DNA of 29,171 nt from a virus. The translations under genes and the position numbers were made by a program. The stretch covers positions 1 through 29,171 of the IMG/VR virus record IMGVR_UViG_3300044681_000120; one strand, given 5' to 3'. Below, in pieces: positions 21,573-29,171 of the stretch (the stretch's first letter is position 1; each line of letters begins with the position of its first letter). The notes beneath the pieces are model-generated. The model saw nothing but the letters and a program-made list of their open reading frames with translations, was not told the DNA's origin and searched no databases.

Positions 21573-22050
21573 CTTTTGCGGCCATGATCTGCGCCAGCAC
21601 GTCGGTGCCAAGCTTGGAAACGTCCAGGGTGGCCACGGCAATCGGTGCGCCGTCCTTGCCGGTGATCTCGTGGGCCTGCACCTCTTTCCAGCGCATCTGG
21701 GTCTTGCTCCACCAGATGGCGGCCGTCGTGTCGCCGGACATGGCCTTCTGGAACAGGGTCTTGCCGATCTGGCCATTGGCCTTGGCTTTGCCCTCGATCA
21801 GCTCTTTGCCGAAGTATTTGGTCAGGGTATCCACCGAGATGCCATCCCGAATCAGGACGGCAATCTGGTCGATCGGCAGGCCATAGCCGGACAGGGCTTC
21901 GACCTGCTTTCGCTCAGCGTCGGTCGGCTCAAATGCTGGTCGCCCAGCACCTTCCCGAGCGCCTCCGCTGTTCGGCCTGGGGCCGCCGCGCTTTTTTGTG
22001 ACGGGTTTTTCAGCAGTGTCAGTCTGCTTTTTGTGGTTTTTCGTTGCCAT
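21553..22050 (-). CDS. terS: Terminase small subunit
   Basis: 165 aa. A basic, Gly/Arg-rich start (KKRGGPRPNSGGAREGAGRP) is followed by FEPTDAERKQVEALSGYGLPIDQIAVLIRDGISVDTLTKYFGKELIEGKAKANGQIGKTLFQKAMSGDTTAAIWWSKTQMRWKE. This contains an N-terminal helix-turn-helix and the AKANxQIxxTLFxxAxSGxxTAAIWWxKxxxxW signature common to this small-terminase group. It recognises the packaging site and recruits the large subunit. GGAGG lies 6 nt before ATG 22050. The start overlaps the 3' end of the methyltransferase gene by 32 bp. Confidence 0.88.
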   Translation of the reverse strand: MATKNHKKQTDTAEKPVTKKRGGPRPNSGGAREGAGRPAFEPTDAERKQVEALSGYGLPIDQIAVLIRDGISVDTLTKYFGKELIEGKAKANGQIGKTLFQKAMSGDTTAAIWWSKTQMRWKEVQAHEITGKDGAPIAVATLDVSKLGTDVLAQIMAAKDATDGS

Positions 22051-23269
22051 TTGTAACCTCCGCGAAAGGTTCGCCAGTTTCTGCGTGAGTTGCTATTTTG
22101 CCAGTGAACTGCTGCCACCGTTTGACGATTACGTCGCAATACTTGGGGTCGAGTTCCATCAGACTGGCATGGCGTCCGGTTTTCTCGCAGGCGATTAGGG
22201 TGGAGCCTGAGCCGCCGAATAGATCGACAATGATCTTTTTGTCAGCCATCGAGTAGTAGTCAAAGAACCAGCAGACAAGCTCGACCGGCTTCTGCGTAGG
22301 GTGAACCCGCCTCTTCGTGTCGTCCTTGTGCATTCCGTGATGACCTGACCACAGAATGCGAGCGACCATACGCTTGTGCTTTGCCTTCGACCAGCAAAGC
22401 TCAAACGTGTTTCCAACGACCTTATCCATTTTTTCGTCGCAACGCTTATCCCAGACAACCCATGAGCCATCATTGCGGTTTGGTATCAGATCAACATAGT
22501 AATCAGCGCCCCAAAGGAAAATCTCTTTGCAATAATTAAACGCCGCAAAAATCGTGTTTATAAAGTCGGGGTTAAAGTCATCGTGATCGCCTTTAACCAC
22601 GTCAAAGCGGTTTCCTGTTTTCTTGTGGGTCTTGTCGTTGCTGAACATGCTGTCGTAATTCGTGTTCAGGAACATGCCATACGGTGGGTCAGTGAAAACC
22701 ATGTCGGCTTTTTGTCCATCCATCAGTCTATCCACCGCATCGATGCTGGTGCTGTCTCCACACATCAGCCGGTGCTTGCCAAGAACCCACACATCGCCCA
22801 GCCGCGTCACCGGCTCGACAGGCACATCCGGCACAGCATCCTCATCGGTTAAGCCTTCCTCAACCTGCACAGGCGTCAGTGCGTCGATCTCGTCTGCCGT
22901 GAATCCGGTCAAGTCCAGATTAAAGCCCATGTCGGTCAGCTCTGCGAACTCCAGCGCCAGCAGGTCATTGTCCCATTCAGCAAACTCGGCCATGCGGTTG
23001 ACGCTGATGCGAAACGCCTTGATTTGAGCTTCTGTCATGTCATCGGCCAGAATCACAGGCACTTCGGCCAAGCCGAGCTTTTTGGCTGCCTTCAGTCTCA
23101 GGTGGCCATCGACAACCAGGCCGTCAGACTTGGCCACCACGGGCACACGGAATCCAAACTCCTTGATGGCTGCCGCGATCTTGTCCACAGCGTGGTCGTT
23201 CTTGCGCGGGTTGCGTGCGTACTCGGTCAGCCGTTCGATCGGCCAGGTTTCAAAGGTAAGCGGGGTCAT
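22019..23269 (-). CDS. ParB-domain DNA methyltransferase (N6-adenine/N4-cytosine, beta-type order)
   Basis: 416 aa. Residues about 5-95 form a ParB/Srx-like domain (WPIERLTEYARNPRKNDHAVDKIAAAIKEFGFRVPVVAKSDGLVVDGHLRLKAAKKLG). From about 150 a methyltransferase follows: motif IV TDPPYG (193-198), a target-recognition stretch (about 205-320), then motif I DLFGGSGST (349-357). Motif IV before motif I is the circularly permuted beta-class order. The target sequence and base cannot be read off. The region 22,340-22,640, corresponding to the middle of the enzyme, is lower in GC. No partner restriction enzyme is visible. It overlaps RusA (ATGA) and small terminase; a role in protecting phage DNA or marking it for packaging is inferred. 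The frame open to 23686 is a shadow. Confidence 0.9.
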   Translation of the reverse strand: MTPLTFETWPIERLTEYARNPRKNDHAVDKIAAAIKEFGFRVPVVAKSDGLVVDGHLRLKAAKKLGLAEVPVILADDMTEAQIKAFRISVNRMAEFAEWDNDLLALEFAELTDMGFNLDLTGFTADEIDALTPVQVEEGLTDEDAVPDVPVEPVTRLGDVWVLGKHRLMCGDSTSIDAVDRLMDGQKADMVFTDPPYGMFLNTNYDSMFSNDKTHKKTGNRFDVVKGDHDDFNPDFINTIFAAFNYCKEIFLWGADYYVDLIPNRNDGSWVVWDKRCDEKMDKVVGNTFELCWSKAKHKRMVARILWSGHHGMHKDDTKRRVHPTQKPVELVCWFFDYYSMADKKIIVDLFGGSGSTLIACEKTGRHASLMELDPKYCDVIVKRWQQFTGKIATHAETGEPFAEVTNGNEKPQKAD

Positions 23270-23613
23270 TCTGTGGGCCTTTCGATGTGAACTTCTACGA
23301 ATCCGCCGACCGTTTCGCCCTTGCGGATGGTCAGCGTCCAGTGTTTGTCGTCTACCTTGAGCACGTCGGCCAGGCCATCGAGACCGGCTTTCATGCGTGC
23401 CAGGGCGTTGTCCAGGTCGTACTGCCTGCGGGTTGGCGGGTAGAACGTCAGGGTCAGGTGCAGGCTGGCGGACTGGATCGGGCGTGCGCCTTGCTCCATG
23501 GCCTGCCAAAAACAGGTCTCTCGATACTGCTTTTTGAGCTTGGCGGTCTTGGCCCAGTGGTTTCTGGCGTTTGGAGACAGGCCGGTGGGTGGCCATGGAA
23601 GGACAATTCTCAC
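23266..23613 (-). CDS. RusA-type Holliday-junction resolvase
   Basis: 115 aa from GTG 23613 (RIVLPWPPTGLSPNARNHW). The family landmarks are LPWPP at the start, then YPPTRRQYDLDNALARMKAGLDGL with the catalytic Asp66 and Asp68, and VLKVDDK with Asp88/89. RusA resolves recombination and replication junctions before packaging. The GTG is preferred because it overlaps the stop of the 38-aa gene as GTGA, has GAGG upstream, and gives the normal family length. A longer frame to 23718 would add a wrong-frame, Cys/Trp-rich piece. The product acts as a dimer in the cytoplasm. Confidence 0.9.
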   Translation of the reverse strand: MRIVLPWPPTGLSPNARNHWAKTAKLKKQYRETCFWQAMEQGARPIQSASLHLTLTFYPPTRRQYDLDNALARMKAGLDGLADVLKVDDKHWTLTIRKGETVGGFVEVHIERPTE

Positions 23614-23726
23614 AGCCACCTCGTCCAAATAAGCCAGGCATATAGAGCCACCACACCCCACCACTGGCCAAATGCAACAAGTGCAACGGTCAGCAGGACG
23701 GGCCAGTATCGTTCCCAAAAGCTCAT
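23610..23726 (-). CDS. 38-aa Trp-rich membrane mini-protein
   Basis: Read by hand: ATG 23726 overlaps the previous stop (ATGA) and TGA 23610-23612 overlaps the RusA GTG (GTGA). The sequence starts MSFWERYWPVLLTVALVAF and ends LYAWLIWTRWL. It is almost entirely one or two membrane segments with seven Trp in 38 residues. From memory, close relatives occur at the same site in other Burkholderiales-type phages. No function is known; a tiny membrane effector or a translational coupler is possible. Being linked on both sides by 4-nt overlaps makes real translation likely. Confidence 0.72.
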   Translation of the reverse strand: MSFWERYWPVLLTVALVAFGQWWGVVALYAWLIWTRWL

Positions 23727-24019
23727 TTCAGTCGCTCCAGTGTTTCGGCCAGCAAGTCTTCCTGCCGCCCGTATTTTTCCTCAAATCTGGCCTTCCACGG
23801 GTGGACCGCGATTAGGCCCGGCGCGCCTGTGCCGTCCTGGTGATGACCGGCACATAGTGCAAGCACCTTGCTATGCGCCCCGGCCTTGGTGCGCCCATCG
23901 ATGTGGTGGATGCTGACCAAATCCGTAAACACCCCGTCTTTGCGGCATGCGATGCACCCAAGCGCAGCGATGCGGCTCCAAAGGGCCCGCTCGGATTTTG
24001 TGGGGGTCTTGCCTTTCAT
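23723..24019 (-). CDS. Ref-like (RecA-dependent) HNH nuclease
   Basis: 98 aa. GCIACRKDG (C22, C25) is followed by SIHHIDGRTKAGAHSKVLALCAGHHQDGTGAPGLIAVHPWKARFEEKYG, the beta-beta-alpha HNH core of the phage P1 Ref / RecA_dep_nuc family. Ref cuts DNA in a RecA-filament-dependent way and raises recombination (family knowledge). The start MKGKTPTKSER at 24019 overlaps the upstream stop as ATGA; a frame to 24112 is a shadow. It sits next to RusA, consistent with a recombination-linked gene block. Confidence 0.85.
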   Translation of the reverse strand: MKGKTPTKSERALWSRIAALGCIACRKDGVFTDLVSIHHIDGRTKAGAHSKVLALCAGHHQDGTGAPGLIAVHPWKARFEEKYGRQEDLLAETLERLK

Positions 24020-24915
24020 TCGCACAGCCCGTAGATGGATGAGCACAGCGGGCCGTCGTTCTGGACGCGCATGAGGTCGTATTGGGTGCCGCCACGGCTG
24101 GTCTTGGACCATTCCACCACTTGGGCAATGTTCTCGCCGCGCCCATCATGCGTGAAGAACGAGGCCGCTTGTATCTTGCTGGCCTGCGAGACAATCCGCT
24201 CCCACTCGGCCACCCGCTCAATCTGCTCGGGGAACCTCCGGCTGATCTCGAGCAGCTCGTCCTTGCGGGCGTGGATGCACGGCATGCAGCCAACCCTGCC
24301 CATCCCCTGCTCGTAGAGCGGGTTGTGCTTCACGTTGTGCTTACGATGCATCGCGAAGGCGTCTGCCGCCGTCCATTTCAGGATCGGTCGGTAGTTCCAC
24401 AGACCGCCGCCAACTTCCTCCAGCTCGGCCAAATCCCGGCGAGCGAGGCTTTCGTCTGCCCTCACGCCCTGCCATGACCAGATGGTGTCGCCCTGCTCCA
24501 GCAGCGGAATCTGAACCTGCTCGACGATGGGGTTGCGCTTGAGTTCCTCACTACAAAACCTGGCCTTCGTGCTGGGCATTCGGCCTTTCCAAATGCACAG
24601 GTCGAGGAACGGGATGCCGGTGGGCACCAGCGCAGCCAGTGCCTGCTCGACGACCTCGGGGGGCACTCCCTTCTCCTGCCACTTGCTGCGGACGTATTCT
24701 CGCTTGCGCTCGATGTCCTGGGTGAAATCCGCTTTGATGGTGCGGATCGGGAACACCGTGTCATTCAGGTAGTGGATGTAGTCGTAGGTTTGCGGGTGCT
24801 CGTGACCGGTGTCAGCGAACACGGCCTGCAAGTTCTCGGCCTCACGCTCAATGGCCAGCAGCAGCAGCGCCGTGCTGTCCTTGCCGCCGCTCACGCTGAC
24901 GATGTTGTGCTTCAT
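24016..24915 (-). CDS. PAPS-reductase-like ATP pyrophosphatase
   Basis: 299 aa. The N-terminal PP-loop SGGKDS (9-14) is followed by FADTGHEHPQTYDYI, then RFCSEELKRNP (Cys121), GVRADESLARR (150-160), and a C-terminal half with VGCMPCIHARKDEL (Cys210, Cys213) and PLCSSIYGLCE (Cys291, Cys298). This is the CysH/DndC-type fold that adenylates a substrate, and the four late Cys could hold an Fe-S cluster or zinc. In phages the real substrate is not known. Options include sulfur addition to nucleic acid or sulfate metabolism. No other dnd genes are seen. It overlaps DUF1367 (ATGA) and Ref (ATGA), so it is in the same operon. Confidence 0.85.
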   Translation of the reverse strand: MKHNIVSVSGGKDSTALLLLAIEREAENLQAVFADTGHEHPQTYDYIHYLNDTVFPIRTIKADFTQDIERKREYVRSKWQEKGVPPEVVEQALAALVPTGIPFLDLCIWKGRMPSTKARFCSEELKRNPIVEQVQIPLLEQGDTIWSWQGVRADESLARRDLAELEEVGGGLWNYRPILKWTAADAFAMHRKHNVKHNPLYEQGMGRVGCMPCIHARKDELLEISRRFPEQIERVAEWERIVSQASKIQAASFFTHDGRGENIAQVVEWSKTSRGGTQYDLMRVQNDGPLCSSIYGLCE

Positions 24916-25532: not shown

Positions 25533-26174
25533 TCAGTCCCCGCCGATGATGTTGCTTGCAATTTGAGCCAGCGGCGTAAATGTGACCGCAGTCTTGCCGG
25601 CAATACTGCCGTGCAAAAAAACTTGCTTCGCCCGGTCTGGATCACCAATCAAGGCTGGTTTGGGCGGTGGCAAGCCTTTGGCCGCATAGACATCGTCAGG
25701 GCTTCTGTCACCCATCAGTCGCCGCGGGTAGTCGAACTGGCCTCTGGCAGTGTAGGCTCGATGCGCTTCGCAGAATCGGTGTTGCAAATAGCTAAGCTGG
25801 CTTGTTTCGCCGCGGCAAATCTTGACCCAACCGCCCAAGTCCTCGACCGCGGCATGGATTGCCGGATCATCAAACACCACGTCGGTATAAGCGCCAACCC
25901 TTCCCATGGCTTCATACAACTTGCCCCAGGCGAGCATCGCCCTGTCGGTTGCTGTGCCTTCCAGCTGCCGAACCAGGTCAGCAGGCTTTGGTGGGAATAT
26001 TCCGCGCTCGGCATCCATGGCGTGCTTTGTCAGGGCTTTGGAAACCTGCTCGAAATCAAAGTTTTCGCAGGCCGACCACCAGACATTCAAAGCAAACGGG
26101 CTGACGTCCTGTTTGTAGAAGGCCATCACGTCACGCAGCATGGCGGCAAATTGCTGTTTGTCAGTTGGCTTCAT
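25533..26174 (-). CDS. DUF6475-like phage protein, possible replication accessory
   Basis: 213 aa from ATG 26174, which has AAGGAG at 6 nt; the ATG at 26195 lacks one. The sequence has the family landmarks FYKQDVSPFALNVWWSACENFDFEQVSKALTKHA, GIFPPKPADLVRQLEGTATDRAMLAWGKL, VGAYTDVVFDDPAIHAAVEDLGGWVKIC, and PALIGDPDRAKQ. From memory this matches DUF6475, found just after replication-initiator genes in phages. It could act like a helicase loader by position (the slot of lambda P), but no ATPase motif is present, so the role is open. It overlaps the upstream gene by 14 bp. Confidence 0.72.
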   Translation of the reverse strand: MKPTDKQQFAAMLRDVMAFYKQDVSPFALNVWWSACENFDFEQVSKALTKHAMDAERGIFPPKPADLVRQLEGTATDRAMLAWGKLYEAMGRVGAYTDVVFDDPAIHAAVEDLGGWVKICRGETSQLSYLQHRFCEAHRAYTARGQFDYPRRLMGDRSPDDVYAAKGLPPPKPALIGDPDRAKQVFLHGSIAGKTAVTFTPLAQIASNIIGGD

Positions 26175-26904
26175 GAATGTCTCCTTGTTGCGCAAGCCAC
26201 TCCTCCATGGCTGCCTGGTTGCGCTGTTCGACAGCTGCCTGCTTGTTGATCGTGCCGCCGCCTGCTGCCTTCAAAGCAAAAAGGCCCTGCCATCCGTTGG
26301 CGATCGACTGCTCGACCACCGCAGCCTGCTGCTCGCCATGCTTGGCCAAGGCTTGTTGAGCAGAATGGATCGATGCAGGCTTCAGCGCTTTGCCGATCTC
26401 TTTTCTGTAGGCAACCCAACGATCCCAAGACCTGACGTCCAGGCCTTCTGGAAAAACATCGGGTGCGCTGTCAAGCGCTTTCCGGTTTTTGTTTCCGGTC
26501 TCGGTTTTTGTTTCGGTTTCGGTTTCGGTTAAAGGTAGAACTGTACGCGGCTTGCTTGCAGATGTATGCAAGTGTGCGCAATCGTAGTCTGGTGCAGGGT
26601 ATTTGCTTTCCTTTGCGCGTGGCACGTTGTCCCATTTGCACATTTGCAGACAAGGCTTTCCGTCTGTGGTGTAGATGTGCACAAGCCCTGCCGCATGTAG
26701 CTCATCAAGCAATGCAGCGCACTTTGCAGGCGTCATGTCCTTGATTGGAAAGCAGTGGGCTTTGACCATGGCTGGCCGACCGTCATAACGGCCAAAGTCG
26801 TCCACCGTGACCAGCAAACGGTAAAAAAGGGTTTCGGCCAGAGGGCTCAGTGAATCAATGGCTTCACTGTCTCTGACACCTGGCTTCAGGTATCTAGTTG
26901 GCAT
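26161..26904 (-). CDS. Replication-initiator-like protein (lambda O-like layout)
   Basis: 247 aa. The N-terminal ~110 residues (MPTRYLKPGVRDSEAIDSLSPLAETLFYRLLVTVDDFGRYDGRPAMVKAHCFPI, then CAALLDELHAAGLVHIYTTDGKPCLQMCKWDN) match the winged-helix start of phage replication/replisome-organiser proteins. A low-complexity linker TETETETKTETGNKN (about 126-140) follows, encoded by ACCGAA-type hexamers. The C-terminal part (SWDRWVAYRKEIGKALKPASIHSAQQALAKHGEQQAAVVEQSIANGWQGLFAL) resembles the DnaT/replication C-terminal domain. It should bind the phage origin and recruit host helicase. The start overlaps the 35-aa gene by 11 bp. Confidence 0.8.
   Translation of the reverse strand: MPTRYLKPGVRDSEAIDSLSPLAETLFYRLLVTVDDFGRYDGRPAMVKAHCFPIKDMTPAKCAALLDELHAAGLVHIYTTDGKPCLQMCKWDNVPRAKESKYPAPDYDCAHLHTSASKPRTVLPLTETETETKTETGNKNRKALDSAPDVFPEGLDVRSWDRWVAYRKEIGKALKPASIHSAQQALAKHGEQQAAVVEQSIANGWQGLFALKAAGGGTINKQAAVEQRNQAAMEEWLAQQGDIHEAN
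26479..26530 (-). repeat. ACCGAA hexamer repeat inside the replication gene
   Basis: On the minus strand three exact ACCGAA units stand in tandem, followed by ACAAAA, ACCGAG and ACCGGA and then AACAAA/AACCGG-like units. It codes for a Thr-Glu linker between the two domains of the replication protein. It may be only a flexible linker, or it may double as origin iterons as in lambda O. Confidence 0.6.
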
Positions 26905-27001
26905 TTTTTGCTCCGCGTCGCTCCCAGAAAAAAGACTTACGGCAGGCGGGGAGTTCGCTTTTCGGTCGGGGGATCAATCCTGACCTAGCCGGGTCTCGCA
27001 T
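26894..27001 (-). CDS. 35-aa basic mini-protein between regulator and replication gene
   Basis: Read by hand: ATG 27001 has GAGG 7 nt upstream (inside the end of the regulator gene) and TAG at 26894-26896. The product starts MRDPARSGLIPRPKSELPACRKSFFWERRGAKNAN and is rich in Arg/Lys. It overlaps the replication gene by 11 bp, so it may couple its translation. I do not recognise a family with certainty. A leader peptide, a small DNA-binding protein, or a chance frame are possible. Confidence 0.5.
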   Translation of the reverse strand: MRDPARSGLIPRPKSELPACRKSFFWERRGAKNAN

Positions 27002-27010
27002 AACTTTACC

Positions 27011-27223
27011 TCAGACCAGCAGTCCATTCAAGGATTTTCTGAAGCCAGGGCCGAACTTCTTGTCCAGCACCGGCCGCCATTTGTGCGCCACGCCATTGCG
27101 TGTCCAAGCCTCCACGGCCTGGCCACTGGTGGCTCCCAAGGCCTGCGCCACTGCCTTGTAGGAGCCGAGGCTCTCACGGGCAAAGGCCAGCACCTGTGCG
27201 AAATATTGGTCGTCTTTCTTCAT
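27011..27223 (-). CDS. YdaS/Cro-like transcription regulator
   Basis: 70 aa with a helix-turn-helix in SYKAVAQALGATSGQAVEAWTRNGVAHKWRPVLDKKFG (about 21-58), where the AVEAW...GVAxKWRPxL pattern is that of YdaS/Cro-like proteins. It is the first gene of the leftward operon, facing the operator-rich 27,224-27,346 region. It is expected to bind that region and repress one or both divergent promoters. It has a close GAGG only 1 nt from the ATG, so its translation start is weakly supported by spacing, and a short or leaderless mRNA is possible. Confidence 0.78.
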   Translation of the reverse strand: MKKDDQYFAQVLAFARESLGSYKAVAQALGATSGQAVEAWTRNGVAHKWRPVLDKKFGPGFRKSLNGLLV

Positions 27224-27346
27224 GCCTCAAACTTTACCACGATTTTGCATGATTCGTGCAAAAATATTTTTTGCCACTTGCACAAAATCCTCTTGCACCA
27301 TGCTATGATTCGTTTCACCAACAACCAACCACGAAAGGTGAACTCG
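27224..27346. promoter_or_regulatory. Divergent control region with operator half-sites
   Basis: The 123 bp between the regulator and the rightward operon contain TTGCAT (27245-27250), GTGCAA (27256-27261), and TTGCAC twice (27278-27283, 27293-27298). TTTTGCA and TGCAAAA (27243-27249 and 27257-27263) form a palindrome with a 7-nt spacer, and GCAAAAA/TTTTTGC (27258-27264 and 27268-27274) a second one. ATGATTCGT occurs twice (27249-27257 and 27305-27313). This fits binding sites for the adjacent regulator. A leftward -10/-35 pair could not be placed with confidence. Confidence 0.65.
27301..27309 (+). promoter_or_regulatory. Extended -10 promoter of the recombination operon
   Basis: TGCTATGAT is an extended -10 (TGn followed by TATGAT). 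No good -35 stands at 16-18 nt; TTGCAC at 27278 is 20 nt away. Transcription would start near 27316, about 30 nt before the first gene. Confidence 0.55.
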
Positions 27347-27532
27347 ATGCAAGACGACTTTTACATCACGGTGAACGACGGCAACGCCGTCATCATCAGC
27401 CCCAACGAGGAATACATCTCGATGGGCGTGCACATCCGAGGCGGCAGCGTTCGGATCGACATGACACCCCAGCAGGCCCAGGAACTGATCGAGGCCATCG
27501 CAAACACCATGAACACAAAGGAGACAGCATGA
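27347..27532 (+). CDS. Small hypothetical protein, 61 aa, first of the recombination operon
   Basis: The protein starts MQDDFYITVNDGNAVIISPNEEYISMGVHIRGGSVRIDMTPQQAQELIEAIANTM. It has AAAGGTG upstream at 6-7 nt, and an ATGA overlap with the ERF gene. A beta-rich first half (DFYITVNDG...IISP...VHIRGGSVRIDM) is followed by a helix. From memory, similar small proteins stand first in recombination operons of other phages. No function is known. The frame is open further up to 27083, but that part lies over the operator and the opposite gene. Confidence 0.7.
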   Translation: MQDDFYITVNDGNAVIISPNEEYISMGVHIRGGSVRIDMTPQQAQELIEAIANTMNTKETA

Positions 27533-28104
27533 AAGAGATCGCAGCAGCATTGGTCAAGGCCCAGCGAGCATTTGGGCCTGCACTCAAGACCAGCTCAAAC
27601 CCCCACTTCAAGAGCCGATACGCCGACCTGGCCGCCTGCGTCGAGGCTGTCATGGATGGCCTGAACGCCAACGGCATTGCCCTGGTGCAGCAAACCCACG
27701 AATGCGAATCAGGCGTGATCGTCGAGACGGTCTTTGTCCACGAATCAGGGGAAACATTCTCAGCAGGCAAACTGCACGTGCCTGCGGTCAAGCACGACGC
27801 CCAGGGCTACGGCAGCGCCCTGACCTACGCACGCCGCTACAGCCTGATGGCCGCCTGCGGTATTGCGCCAGAGGATGACGACGGCAATGCCGCCAGCAAG
27901 CGCACGCCAGCGCCTGTGCCGGGTTATGGTGAGTACGAGGCCGAGACCCTGCCAGCCATGCGCGACGCCGCCATGCAGGGCAGCGAGGCACTGGCCGCAG
28001 CTTTCCAGGCATTGCCCAAGTCGGCTCATAAGGCCGCGTTCTGGCAAGCCCAAGGCCCAGCCCTCAAGAAGGCCGCCAAGACCGCAGACGGAGGTGCAGC
28101 ATGA
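27529..28104 (+). CDS. ERF-family single-strand annealing protein
   Basis: 191 aa. The core MKEIAAALVKAQRAFGPALKTSSNPHFKSRYADLAACVEAVMDGLNANGIALVQQT and FSAGKLHVPAVKHDAQGYGSALTYARRYSLMAACGIAPEDDDGNAA are diagnostic (P22 Erf family: 'NP.FKS.YA.L', 'QG.GSA.TYARRY.L....G...EDDDGN'). It anneals single strands made by the following exonuclease and so circularises or repairs phage DNA. AAGGAG lies 5 nt before the ATG. A charged Ala-rich C-terminus (RTPAPVPG..., ALKKAAKTADGGAA) is probably the flexible tail. Confidence 0.92.
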   Translation: MKEIAAALVKAQRAFGPALKTSSNPHFKSRYADLAACVEAVMDGLNANGIALVQQTHECESGVIVETVFVHESGETFSAGKLHVPAVKHDAQGYGSALTYARRYSLMAACGIAPEDDDGNAASKRTPAPVPGYGEYEAETLPAMRDAAMQGSEALAAAFQALPKSAHKAAFWQAQGPALKKAAKTADGGAA

Positions 28105-28727
28105 GAATCATCACTGCCGACCAAGGAACAGAGGAATGGAAGCAGGCACGTGTCGGCGTGCCGTCCGGCTCCAAGTTCAGCGACATCATGGCCAAAGGCA
28201 GCGGGGCAACCCGCGCCACCTACCTGACAGCTTTGGCCCTGGAGCGCATCACAGGGGTGCGTGAGGAGTTCAAGACCACGTTTGCGATGGAGCAGGGCAC
28301 GGAGCGCGAGCCGCTGGCCAGATCAGCTTACGAGGCGCACACCGGCAGCCTGGTCGAAGAAATTGGCTTCTGTATGCACGACACCATGCAGGTCGGGGTC
28401 AGCCCTGACGGGCTGGTCGGCAAAAACGGCATGACCGAATACAAGTGCCCGATGCCAAAGACCCACTTGGAGTATTTGCGCCTGGAGGCAGGCAAGTGCC
28501 CGACAGCCTACCGCTGGCAGGTGCAAGGCCAGCTGTGGATTGCTGAGCGTGAATGGTGCGACTTCGTGTCCTATAACCCAGACTTTCCAGAAAACGCGCA
28601 GACGGTCATTCGCAGAGTGGTGCGTGACGACAAGGCCATCAAGGAGCTGGAGACCGAGGTGGTGAAGTTTCTGGAAGAGATCGAGCGTGAGGTCGAGTTC
28701 ATCAAGTCTTACAAGGACGCATCATGA
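28101..28727 (+). CDS. YqaJ/lambda-Exo-type exonuclease
   Basis: 208 aa. The order is EEWKQARVGVPSGSKFSDIM (11-30), GTEREPLARSAYE (66-78), VGVSPDGLVG with Asp103, TEYKCP with Glu113 and Lys115, and WQVQGQLWIAE (139-149). These are the catalytic residues of the YqaJ viral recombinase fold. It trims 5' strands of double-stranded ends to make 3' overhangs for the ERF protein, forming a two-part recombinase. It overlaps ERF (ATGA) and the next gene (ATGA). Confidence 0.92.
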   Translation: MRIITADQGTEEWKQARVGVPSGSKFSDIMAKGSGATRATYLTALALERITGVREEFKTTFAMEQGTEREPLARSAYEAHTGSLVEEIGFCMHDTMQVGVSPDGLVGKNGMTEYKCPMPKTHLEYLRLEAGKCPTAYRWQVQGQLWIAEREWCDFVSYNPDFPENAQTVIRRVVRDDKAIKELETEVVKFLEEIEREVEFIKSYKDAS

Positions 28728-29014
28728 AAGGTTGCGACCTTCGAGACGCAGGCATCGCTCGCGTGTCCATTGGCCGCGAGGAATGGATCGCCAAGGCACG
28801 CGGCACAGCGATCGCAATCGCCAAGCGTGTAGGCCAGGTGACCATCAACGACGTTCGGAAGTTCATCGAGCTGCCGGACGACTACCACCCCAACACCTGG
28901 GGCGCGGTTCTGAGGGGTGACGCCTTCGAGCCGATCGGATTCTGTCAAGCAACCCACCCATCAGCCCACGCTCGGGTCGTTCGGGTCTACAAACTGAAGG
29001 AGAGCACGGTATGA
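28724..29014 (+). CDS. Small protein with possible winged-helix fold
   Basis: 96 aa. A helical first part contains EEWIAKARGTAIAIAKRVGQVTINDVRKFIELPDDYHPNTWGAVLRGDAFEPIG, and the ending has SAHARVVRVYKLKE. From memory, proteins with 'VTxxDVR...HPNxWGAVxR...xxG....SxHARxVRVW.L' are common in phage recombination operons, and the fold is probably winged-helix. DNA binding is possible, for example to help the recombinase. It is linked to exonuclease and SSB by ATGA overlaps on both sides. Confidence 0.7.
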   Translation: MKGCDLRDAGIARVSIGREEWIAKARGTAIAIAKRVGQVTINDVRKFIELPDDYHPNTWGAVLRGDAFEPIGFCQATHPSAHARVVRVYKLKESTV

Positions 29015-29171
29015 AAGCAAACGGACTGGCACGCATCGGCAAAAACGCCGAGGTGCGATACACACCAGGCGGGGCAGCGGTGGCCAACGTCTCACTGGCG
29101 TTCACCTACGGCAAAAAAGGCGACGATGGCAAGCGGCCAACACAGTGGGTTGACGCATCGCTGTGGGGCCA
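29011..29171 (+). CDS. ssb: Single-stranded DNA-binding protein (N-terminal part)
   Basis: The first 53 residues are MKANGLARIGKNAEVRYTPGGAAVANVSLAFTYGKKGDDGKRPTQWVDASLWG, a clear OB-fold SSB start (GRIGxxxEVRYTPxGxAVANxSLA, then TxWVDxSLWG). The gene runs past the window edge. AAGGAGAG lies 5-7 nt before the ATG. It coats single strands for annealing and replication, and completes a recombination set with ERF and the exonuclease. Confidence 0.9.
   Translation, partial: MKANGLARIGKNAEVRYTPGGAAVANVSLAFTYGKKGDDGKRPTQWVDASLWG

Follow-up and report, generated by a model that had tools for sequence, protein, structure and literature searches.

Introduction

In lambda and P22, a Cro-like gene heads the replication operon and the recombination genes lie in the opposite early operon; in lambda, nutR/tR1 follows cro. 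Aca-type phage autorepressors, in turn, are small helix-turn-helix (HTH) proteins that repress their own promoters. The studied case closest to the region described here is the immunity region of the cryptic prophage CP-933P. According to PMC8630535, YdaS acts there on a divergent region of 97 bp, and paaR2, which encodes the CI analogue, has a leaderless message.

The 123-nt region at positions 27224-27346 of the 29,171-base stretch analyzed here (hereafter the window), which is one linear virus record from an uncultured phage, is a real regulatory region of a known kind in a variant form, apparently lytic and with a single regulator. With moderate confidence, we interpret it as an early control region in which back-to-back promoters share an UP element and a leaderless Cro-like autorepressor acts on a 21-bp palindrome. 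A literature search that included few subscription journals returned no description of this divergent region. An initial annotation had placed divergent promoters here, beside a small Cro/YdaS-like HTH protein and with an operator-like palindrome; our data support that description, so that its observations were largely right and its interpretation partly so.

Results

Positions 27224-27346 are the exact gap between the start codons of two divergent genes, a 70-aa gene on the minus strand that begins at 27223 and runs downwards and a 61-aa gene on the plus strand that runs upwards from 27347. The former (27011-27223) encodes a Cro-like HTH regulator and heads a replication operon, where it is followed by an O-like replication initiator (26161-26904, minus strand; phrog_5810, E 1.3e-19; phrog_678, E 5.5e-18) and then a gene that matches helicase loaders (phrog_2289, E 1.8e-7). 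The latter (27347-27532) has no Pfam match over cut-off, is represented by other genes in relatives and precedes, on the same strand, genes for an Erf-type ssDNA annealing protein (27529-28104; PF04404, E 1.7e-21; phrog_2324, E 3.6e-39) and a YqaJ-type exonuclease (28101-28727; PF09588, E 4.4e-25). Portal, head, scaffold and connector genes of the window match phrog_156, 283, 648, 578 and 637, a head-gene set that we take to be P22-type. The best match of the terminase (64% identity) is in Paracoccus phage vB_PkoS_Pkon1, and a DNA similarity search of isolated phages with 26001-29171 returned two records, each covering 2-3% of the query. Two further minus-strand genes, at 22019-23686 and 24016-24915, presumably encode a ParB-like/DNA methyltransferase fusion and a PAPS-reductase-like protein, judging by eye.

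Scans with the regulator and its alignments yielded 32, 67 and 80 loci, mostly on the same contigs. The main set of 80 regions consists of these 80 loci minus L175, whose start is missing, plus the window; the 79 further loci encode regulators 43-100% identical to that of the window. A close set of 27 regions (the window and L102-L127; 15 distinct sequences) has regulators 96-100% identical.

The initial annotation had assigned control of this region to a YdaS/Cro-like protein. A small HTH gene does adjoin the palindrome, but its product misses the gathering cut-offs of both Pfam families: YdaS (PF15943) scores 14.1 bits (E 0.042; cut-off 30 bits) and P22_Cro (PF14549) 12.6 bits (E 0.12; cut-off 30.2 bits). 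Across 30 family members, matches at E up to 1 occur in 22 for YdaS (best 0.0027) and in 17 for P22_Cro (best 0.024). The best PHROG is phrog_8008, 'DNA binding protein' (E 0.00035); NCBIfam gave nothing over cut-off, and a search of 50,697 phage records for relatives of the regulator in isolated phages returned no match. A close predicted-structure entry, A0A6J5LW12 (80% identical), is an uncharacterized protein of an uncultured phage. The AlphaFold model has four helices (residues 5-19, 22-29, 34-43 and 50-68) with an HTH and a mean pLDDT of 85.9. Its best Foldseek match in the PDB is Cro of Xfaso 1, which is not significant (E 0.46) and is followed at ranks 2-6 by unrelated epoxidase chains (HppE). 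The PDB matches include the Cro structures of Xfaso 1, XPH1, P22 and N15, at E of 0.46 or worse and Z of 5.9 or lower, and the best Z, 6.7 to a phage Rep-Ant complex, lies within a noise range where POU domains rank too. Searching solved structures by sequence placed XPH1 first, again not significantly (E 0.75). Since the Pfam cut-offs are missed and the fold matches are not significant, we file the regulator in neither P22_Cro nor YdaS. It resembles Cro-type regulators in the wide sense in heading a replication operon divergent from the Erf/YqaJ recombination operon, and we propose that it works like a Cro, with self-repression predicted.

The leftward promoter appears to lie against the regulator gene itself. 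An extended -10, TGGTAAAGT (27231-27239, minus strand), ends 7 nt before the start codon and is invariant in all 27 close regions, and TGnTAnnnT occurs 6-8 nt before the regulator ATG in 62 of 63 distinct upstream regions. Mean pairwise identity among 15 representatives is 0.83 for the extended -10 and 0.41 for the 7 nt before the ATG. An SD-like 4-mer is absent from 35 of 39 distinct 18-nt stretches upstream of the regulator; the window is among three such stretches with GAGG, too near the ATG to serve. Given the spacing between -10 and ATG and the usual distance from a -10 to the transcription start, a leader of 0-2 nt is predicted, and the regulator mRNA is probably leaderless. Locus L155 (= L073), the sole exception among the 63, is without the extended -10; with AGGA lying 11 nt upstream of the start, its message is likely to carry a normal leader. 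A strict sigma-70 scan of 26800-27800 reported no promoter, and neither side has a good -35 hexamer.

Between this -10 and the center of the region lie two palindromes that overlap and have GCAAAA in common, TTTTGCATGATTCGTGCAAAA (27243-27263) and GCAAAAATATTTTTTGC (27258-27274), both as initially annotated. The first, TTTTGCA-N7-TGCAAAA, is our proposed operator and reaches from about -19 to about -39 on the leftward promoter. Nine of its 10 pairs match, its GCA and TGC centers are 10 bp (one helical turn) apart, and the window has no other 21-bp palindrome with one mismatch or none; shuffled copies of this AT-rich region yield one of such quality with P = 0.037. Four TTGCAC/GTGCAA half-sites had also been claimed: three are exact (GTGCAA at 27256, TTGCAC at 27278 and 27293), and the fourth would at best be a degenerate TTGCAT at 27245. 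Three exact copies are the maximum for any 123-nt stretch of the window, reached only here, and dinucleotide shuffles of the region give at least three with P = 0.001 (2,000 shuffles). The two copies of the 9-bp direct repeat ATGATTCGT (27249 and 27305) are identical, but the repeat is statistically weak (P = 0.067). The density of half-sites is thus unusual, but the P values of palindrome and repeat are modest in so AT-rich a stretch, and conservation must therefore decide.

Conservation favors the palindrome among close relatives. Across the 27 close regions its right arm is invariant, its left arm is kept in 26 and its center varies in 4; in L028/L060, whose regulator is 80% identical, the outer arms are kept and the center is changed. 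Lineages with regulators 71-76% identical lack the 21-bp dyad. Over 18 representatives and 8 pairs, its center is the best of all centers (4.33 of 8; mean 2.32); over 19 representatives and 7 pairs it ranks third of 81 (column permutations, P 0.011), and sixth of 81 (P 0.049) once the window and its nearest relative are removed. Mean pairwise identity among 15 representatives is 0.55 for the operator segment, 0.38 for the spacer beyond the UP core and 0.72 for the regulator gene (nucleotides). The operator segment is thus less conserved than the promoter parts and more conserved than the free spacers, which fits a site that changes with its protein. TTTTGCATGATTCGTGCAAAA is therefore a credible candidate for an operator at the promoter of the regulator itself. 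Close relatives share it and many distant ones do not: conservation supports this role well within the clade of the window and in the nearest relative, and only weakly across the family.

No further match to the palindrome with at most two mismatches occurs in the window. Two other matches were rejected as operators, having three mismatches each, and 30 of 100 shuffles gave as many. The several equally spaced operator palindromes of lambdoid immunity regions are thus represented here by one full operator-like palindrome. Residue 38 of the recognition helix (E or Q) was compared by eye with the operator sequences for a possible link, which was dropped as untidy.

The half-sites and the repeat fare differently. 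TTGCAC at 27278-27283 (plus strand) is intact in 17 of the 27 close regions and changed in 10, and the plus-side pair forms a direct repeat with a spacing of 15 bp rather than a symmetric dimer site; the idea of four equivalent half-sites is thus unsupported. The copy at 27293-27298 (plus strand), in the spacer of the rightward promoter, is invariant in 27/27 close regions and, by eye, loosely kept among distant representatives; it may be a weak half-site. For ATGATTCGT, which had been put forward as a point of repression, copy 1 is unchanged in 23 of the 27 close regions, altered in 4 and missing from the distant representatives displayed, and copy 2, unchanged in all 27, coincides with the conserved plus-strand -10 plus the sequence after it. 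Given the poor conservation of copy 1 and the promoter identity of copy 2, we reject the repeat as an operator; it is probably a chance occurrence. Neither the half-site at 27278 nor copy 1 of the repeat, altered in 10 and 4 of the 27 close regions, respectively, is under strong constraint.

The second palindrome, GCAAAAATATTTTTTGC, looks more like an UP element than an operator, and binding and stimulation by alpha-CTD are predicted. In PMC2412878, the UP-element consensus includes an AAAWWTWTTTT core, with subsite centers near -42 and -52. Positions 27260-27270 match this core at 11 of 11 positions, and the core center would lie near -52 of the plus promoter and -42 of the minus promoter, counted from inferred start sites; NNNAAA, which the full consensus has after the core, is absent. 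Although the motif was picked after the conserved A/T tract had been noticed, at least 10 of 11 positions match in all 19 representatives and 11 in 14 of them. The core center is 38-41 nt from a plus-strand TATGAT or TAATAT -10 in 70 of the 80 regions (10 are without this arrangement), 27260-27272 is invariant in the 27 close regions, and mean pairwise identity of the core is 0.72 (15 representatives). The match is not rare in shuffles for L129, L134, L147 and L173 (P 0.165-0.225), and is borderline for L130 (P 0.070) and L164 (P 0.065); the match of L178 stands at 43 nt from the minus -10, farther upstream than the usual 27-30 nt.

Alternatively, GCAAAAATATTTTTTGC could be the regulator's primary operator, the 21-bp palindrome being a clade-specific accessory. 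The overlap of the two palindromes is consistent with this, as is the rank of the A/T dyad center, which is first over the 19 representatives both with and without the window and its nearest relative. However, an A-tract followed by a T-tract is dyad-symmetric from composition alone, the UP core matches 11/11 at both expected positions, and the tract is near-constant even among relatives whose regulators have diverged to 43-60% identity, as expected of a site for a host factor (the alpha-CTD of RNA polymerase, for example) more than of one for a changing phage repressor. We consider the primary-operator explanation unlikely, if the strongest of the alternatives, and retain the UP element.

The rightward promoter has the extended -10 that the initial annotation had claimed, TGCTATGAT at 27301-27309 (plus strand), invariant in 27/27 close regions. 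It is followed by a CA-rich 5' leader with a putative SD (GAAAGG; 27310-27346, plus strand), which is conserved ahead of differing first genes: among 15 representatives, mean pairwise identity is 0.81 for the 40 nt from the -10 onward and 0.67 for the 20 nt upstream of it, and the first genes in the 80 regions include MQDDFY-type and MDYLHP-type genes, Erf itself (MEIKQIAAALVKAQ) and several others. Gene exchange thus seems to occur right at the start codon after the leader. A hairpin that would sequester the ribosome-binding site (TTCACC/GGTGAA) was rejected, as only the window forms one out of six leaders folded singly, and a consensus of 15 representatives showed no conserved fold (-0.14 kcal/mol).

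There is no clean palindrome near the plus promoter, and its control by the regulator is the weakest step of our model. The regulator might even activate this promoter instead of repressing it, as the lack of a -35 combined with the invariant TTGCAC at 27293 and weak CII-type matches (phrog_101 in 4 and Phage_CP76 in 9 of 30 family members) could suggest. However, positions 27293-27298, at about -23 to -18, fall inside the core promoter, which is a repressor position, and the weak family matches are mostly to YdaS, Cro and repressor families. Activation is accordingly improbable, and damping by the regulator remains our preferred reading of the plus side.

On the other side of the regulator gene, between it and the replication initiator, lies a putative int-alpA RNA with downstream pairing arms (26906-26995, minus strand). 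In the window, RF02996 matches 26920-26995 with 32.5 bits (E 1.8e-5), below its gathering score of 35.8. By sequence pattern, 64 of 76 regions carry the element (39 distinct) at this place, directly behind the regulator's stop codon. With an E limit of 1, RF02996 matches 15 related loci out of 20 (5 over the gathering score, up to 47.4 bits); with a limit of 0.01, it matches 17 of 20 records (6 over the gathering score; that of G012 is placed elsewhere) and none of 14 control genomes. We know of no assigned function for int-alpA RNA, and its name is almost absent from the literature that we searched.

The P3 loop of the element is complementary to two downstream arms, arm 1 after P1 and arm 2 at the ribosome-binding site; the Rfam structure line for RF02996 shows neither pairing. 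Taken element by element against shuffled tails, the pairing with arm 1 reaches P 0.05 in 6 of 39 distinct elements; since single elements are so seldom significant, the case for it rests on covariation. The arms were defined after inspection and the permutations ignore kinship, but the mean longest run with arm 1 is 6.12 versus 3.57 for mismatched partners (0 of 20,000 permutations), and with arm 2 it is 4.65 versus 3.79 (P 0.00005). This sample comprised 17 distinct loop types, 13 from the window's family and 4 from isolated phages; L190 is exceptional, with a run of 4 in the arm 1 pairing. These patterns suggest that int-alpA may be a translational switch with alternative pseudoknots.

Isolated phages also have int-alpA matches: in the 8 examined of 39 matching records, a gene starts at most 45 nt from the end of the int-alpA match in 7, and in Tyrion the annotated gene lies 167 nt away. 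Two of the genes beside these elements are annotated HNH endonucleases. In these isolated phages (L184-L191), the gene immediately downstream of int-alpA varies, and its surroundings are structural, lysis or packaging genes.

In the window's family, loci L158, L159, L160, L167 and L168 are without int-alpA and have, in the first 127 nt after the regulator stop, a long hairpin and then a terminator-like one; judged by eye, the loops of the two appear complementary (GGACAAG/CUUGUCC, GAAUCAG/CUGAUUC). The slot of L162 and L173 shows a third arrangement. Rfam gave nothing over gathering scores for the slot of L158 and L162. Other structured RNAs thus appear to occupy the slot where int-alpA is missing.

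The phage family appears to be strictly lytic. The search for lysogeny genes covered PF00589, PF00717 and HTH_3. Neither the tyrosine-integrase model (PF00589) nor the S24-repressor model (PF00717) matched any of 20 related records (28.9-40.5 kb), compared with 14 and 10 of the 14 control genomes, respectively; the related records are classed as linear and may be fragments, so that the absence is suggestive rather than final. HTH_3 gave one below-cut-off match in the 20 records and matches in 14/14 control genomes. That match overlaps positions 1126-1617 of L101 (the contig of L088), a stretch near YqaJ that looks, by eye, HNH-endonuclease-like with an HTH-like end. As the integrase and S24-repressor models match 0/20 records, the region appears to be a lytic early timer rather than a lysogeny switch.

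A true lysis-lysogeny switch of a temperate phage would need its CI-type repressor to be encoded outside the 29-kb record. The record is linear and may be a fragment, and the gene order, as we take it, recalls temperate lambdoid phages. However, besides the lack of PF00589 and PF00717 in records whose controls do match, no CI-type repressor gene lies between the two promoters, and no relative, prophage or otherwise, was confirmed in 84,980 genomes scanned by pattern with the regulator alignment. A temperate switch is therefore quite improbable, and we continue to read the region as a lytic timer. Finally, a terminator scan reports exactly the stem of the 21-bp palindrome and its T tail, but a weak intrinsic terminator halting antisense reading from the regulator gene is scarcely credible, with only three G-C pairs, a chance expectation of one such report in the scanned stretch (mean 1.0) and no transcript known to come from that side.

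Discussion

From the anatomy of the region, its conservation, the predicted fold of the regulator and the lack of integrase and S24 matches, we infer the start sites, the DNA binding, the direction of regulation and the function of the UP element as follows. Two back-to-back promoters would start near 27223/27224 (leftward) and 27316/27317 (rightward), each without a good -35 and each driven by its own -10 (extended on the left) together with the common A/T palindrome acting as an UP element. Translation of the regulator would begin at the 5' end of the leftward transcript or within two bases of it. As the regulator accumulates, a dimer may occupy GCA-N7-TGC of the 21-bp palindrome, over its own -35/spacer and abutting the shared UP element. 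The bound dimer would shut off the regulator's own operon, and the recombination operon would be damped, a partial shut-off, through hindrance of the UP element and perhaps also through the weak half-site at 27293.

A more speculative extension, which we offer tentatively, is that the locus forms an early timer of a lytic phage that has no lysogeny repressor: a leaderless Cro-like protein might silence both promoters from one operator abutting a shared UP element, and an interchangeable structured RNA, here int-alpA, might gate passage to the replication genes, its P3 loop pairing with either a decoy arm or the ribosome-binding site of the initiator. If true, early control of the lambda/P22 type would be reduced, where the lysogeny repressor is missing, to a timer that limits itself, with one operator possibly acting on two promoters by way of their shared UP element. 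Furthermore, the 79 related loci offer a natural series for the joint change of repressor and operator, the operator segment varying more than the promoters and leader, and int-alpA RNA gains a testable function through its two covarying pairing arms.

The layout resembles lambda and P22 in that a Cro-like gene heads the replication operon opposite the recombination genes, and a structured RNA follows that gene here as nutR/tR1 follows cro in lambda. In contrast to lambda and P22, no CI gene lies between the promoters, which stand directly back to back with a single operator palindrome, and the cro-like gene is predicted to be leaderless. The autorepression proposed here, through a palindrome that overlaps the regulator's own promoter, is also that of Aca-type proteins, although the fold similarity of the regulator to Aca7 and Aca10 (Z 6.3 and 4.9) is within the noise range. 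The nearest parallel remains CP-933P (PaaR2/YdaS). Its divergent region is similarly short, at 97 bp against 123 bp here, and it likewise combines a small HTH protein of the Cro type with promoters overlain by inverted repeats and a single regulator gene that is leaderless (PMC8630535). The leaderless gene in CP-933P is the CI analogue paaR2, whereas here it is predicted to be that of the Cro-like regulator; and where that account describes two regulators with overlapping footprints and four 18-bp palindromes, the present region has one regulator and one full operator-like palindrome (PMC8630535).
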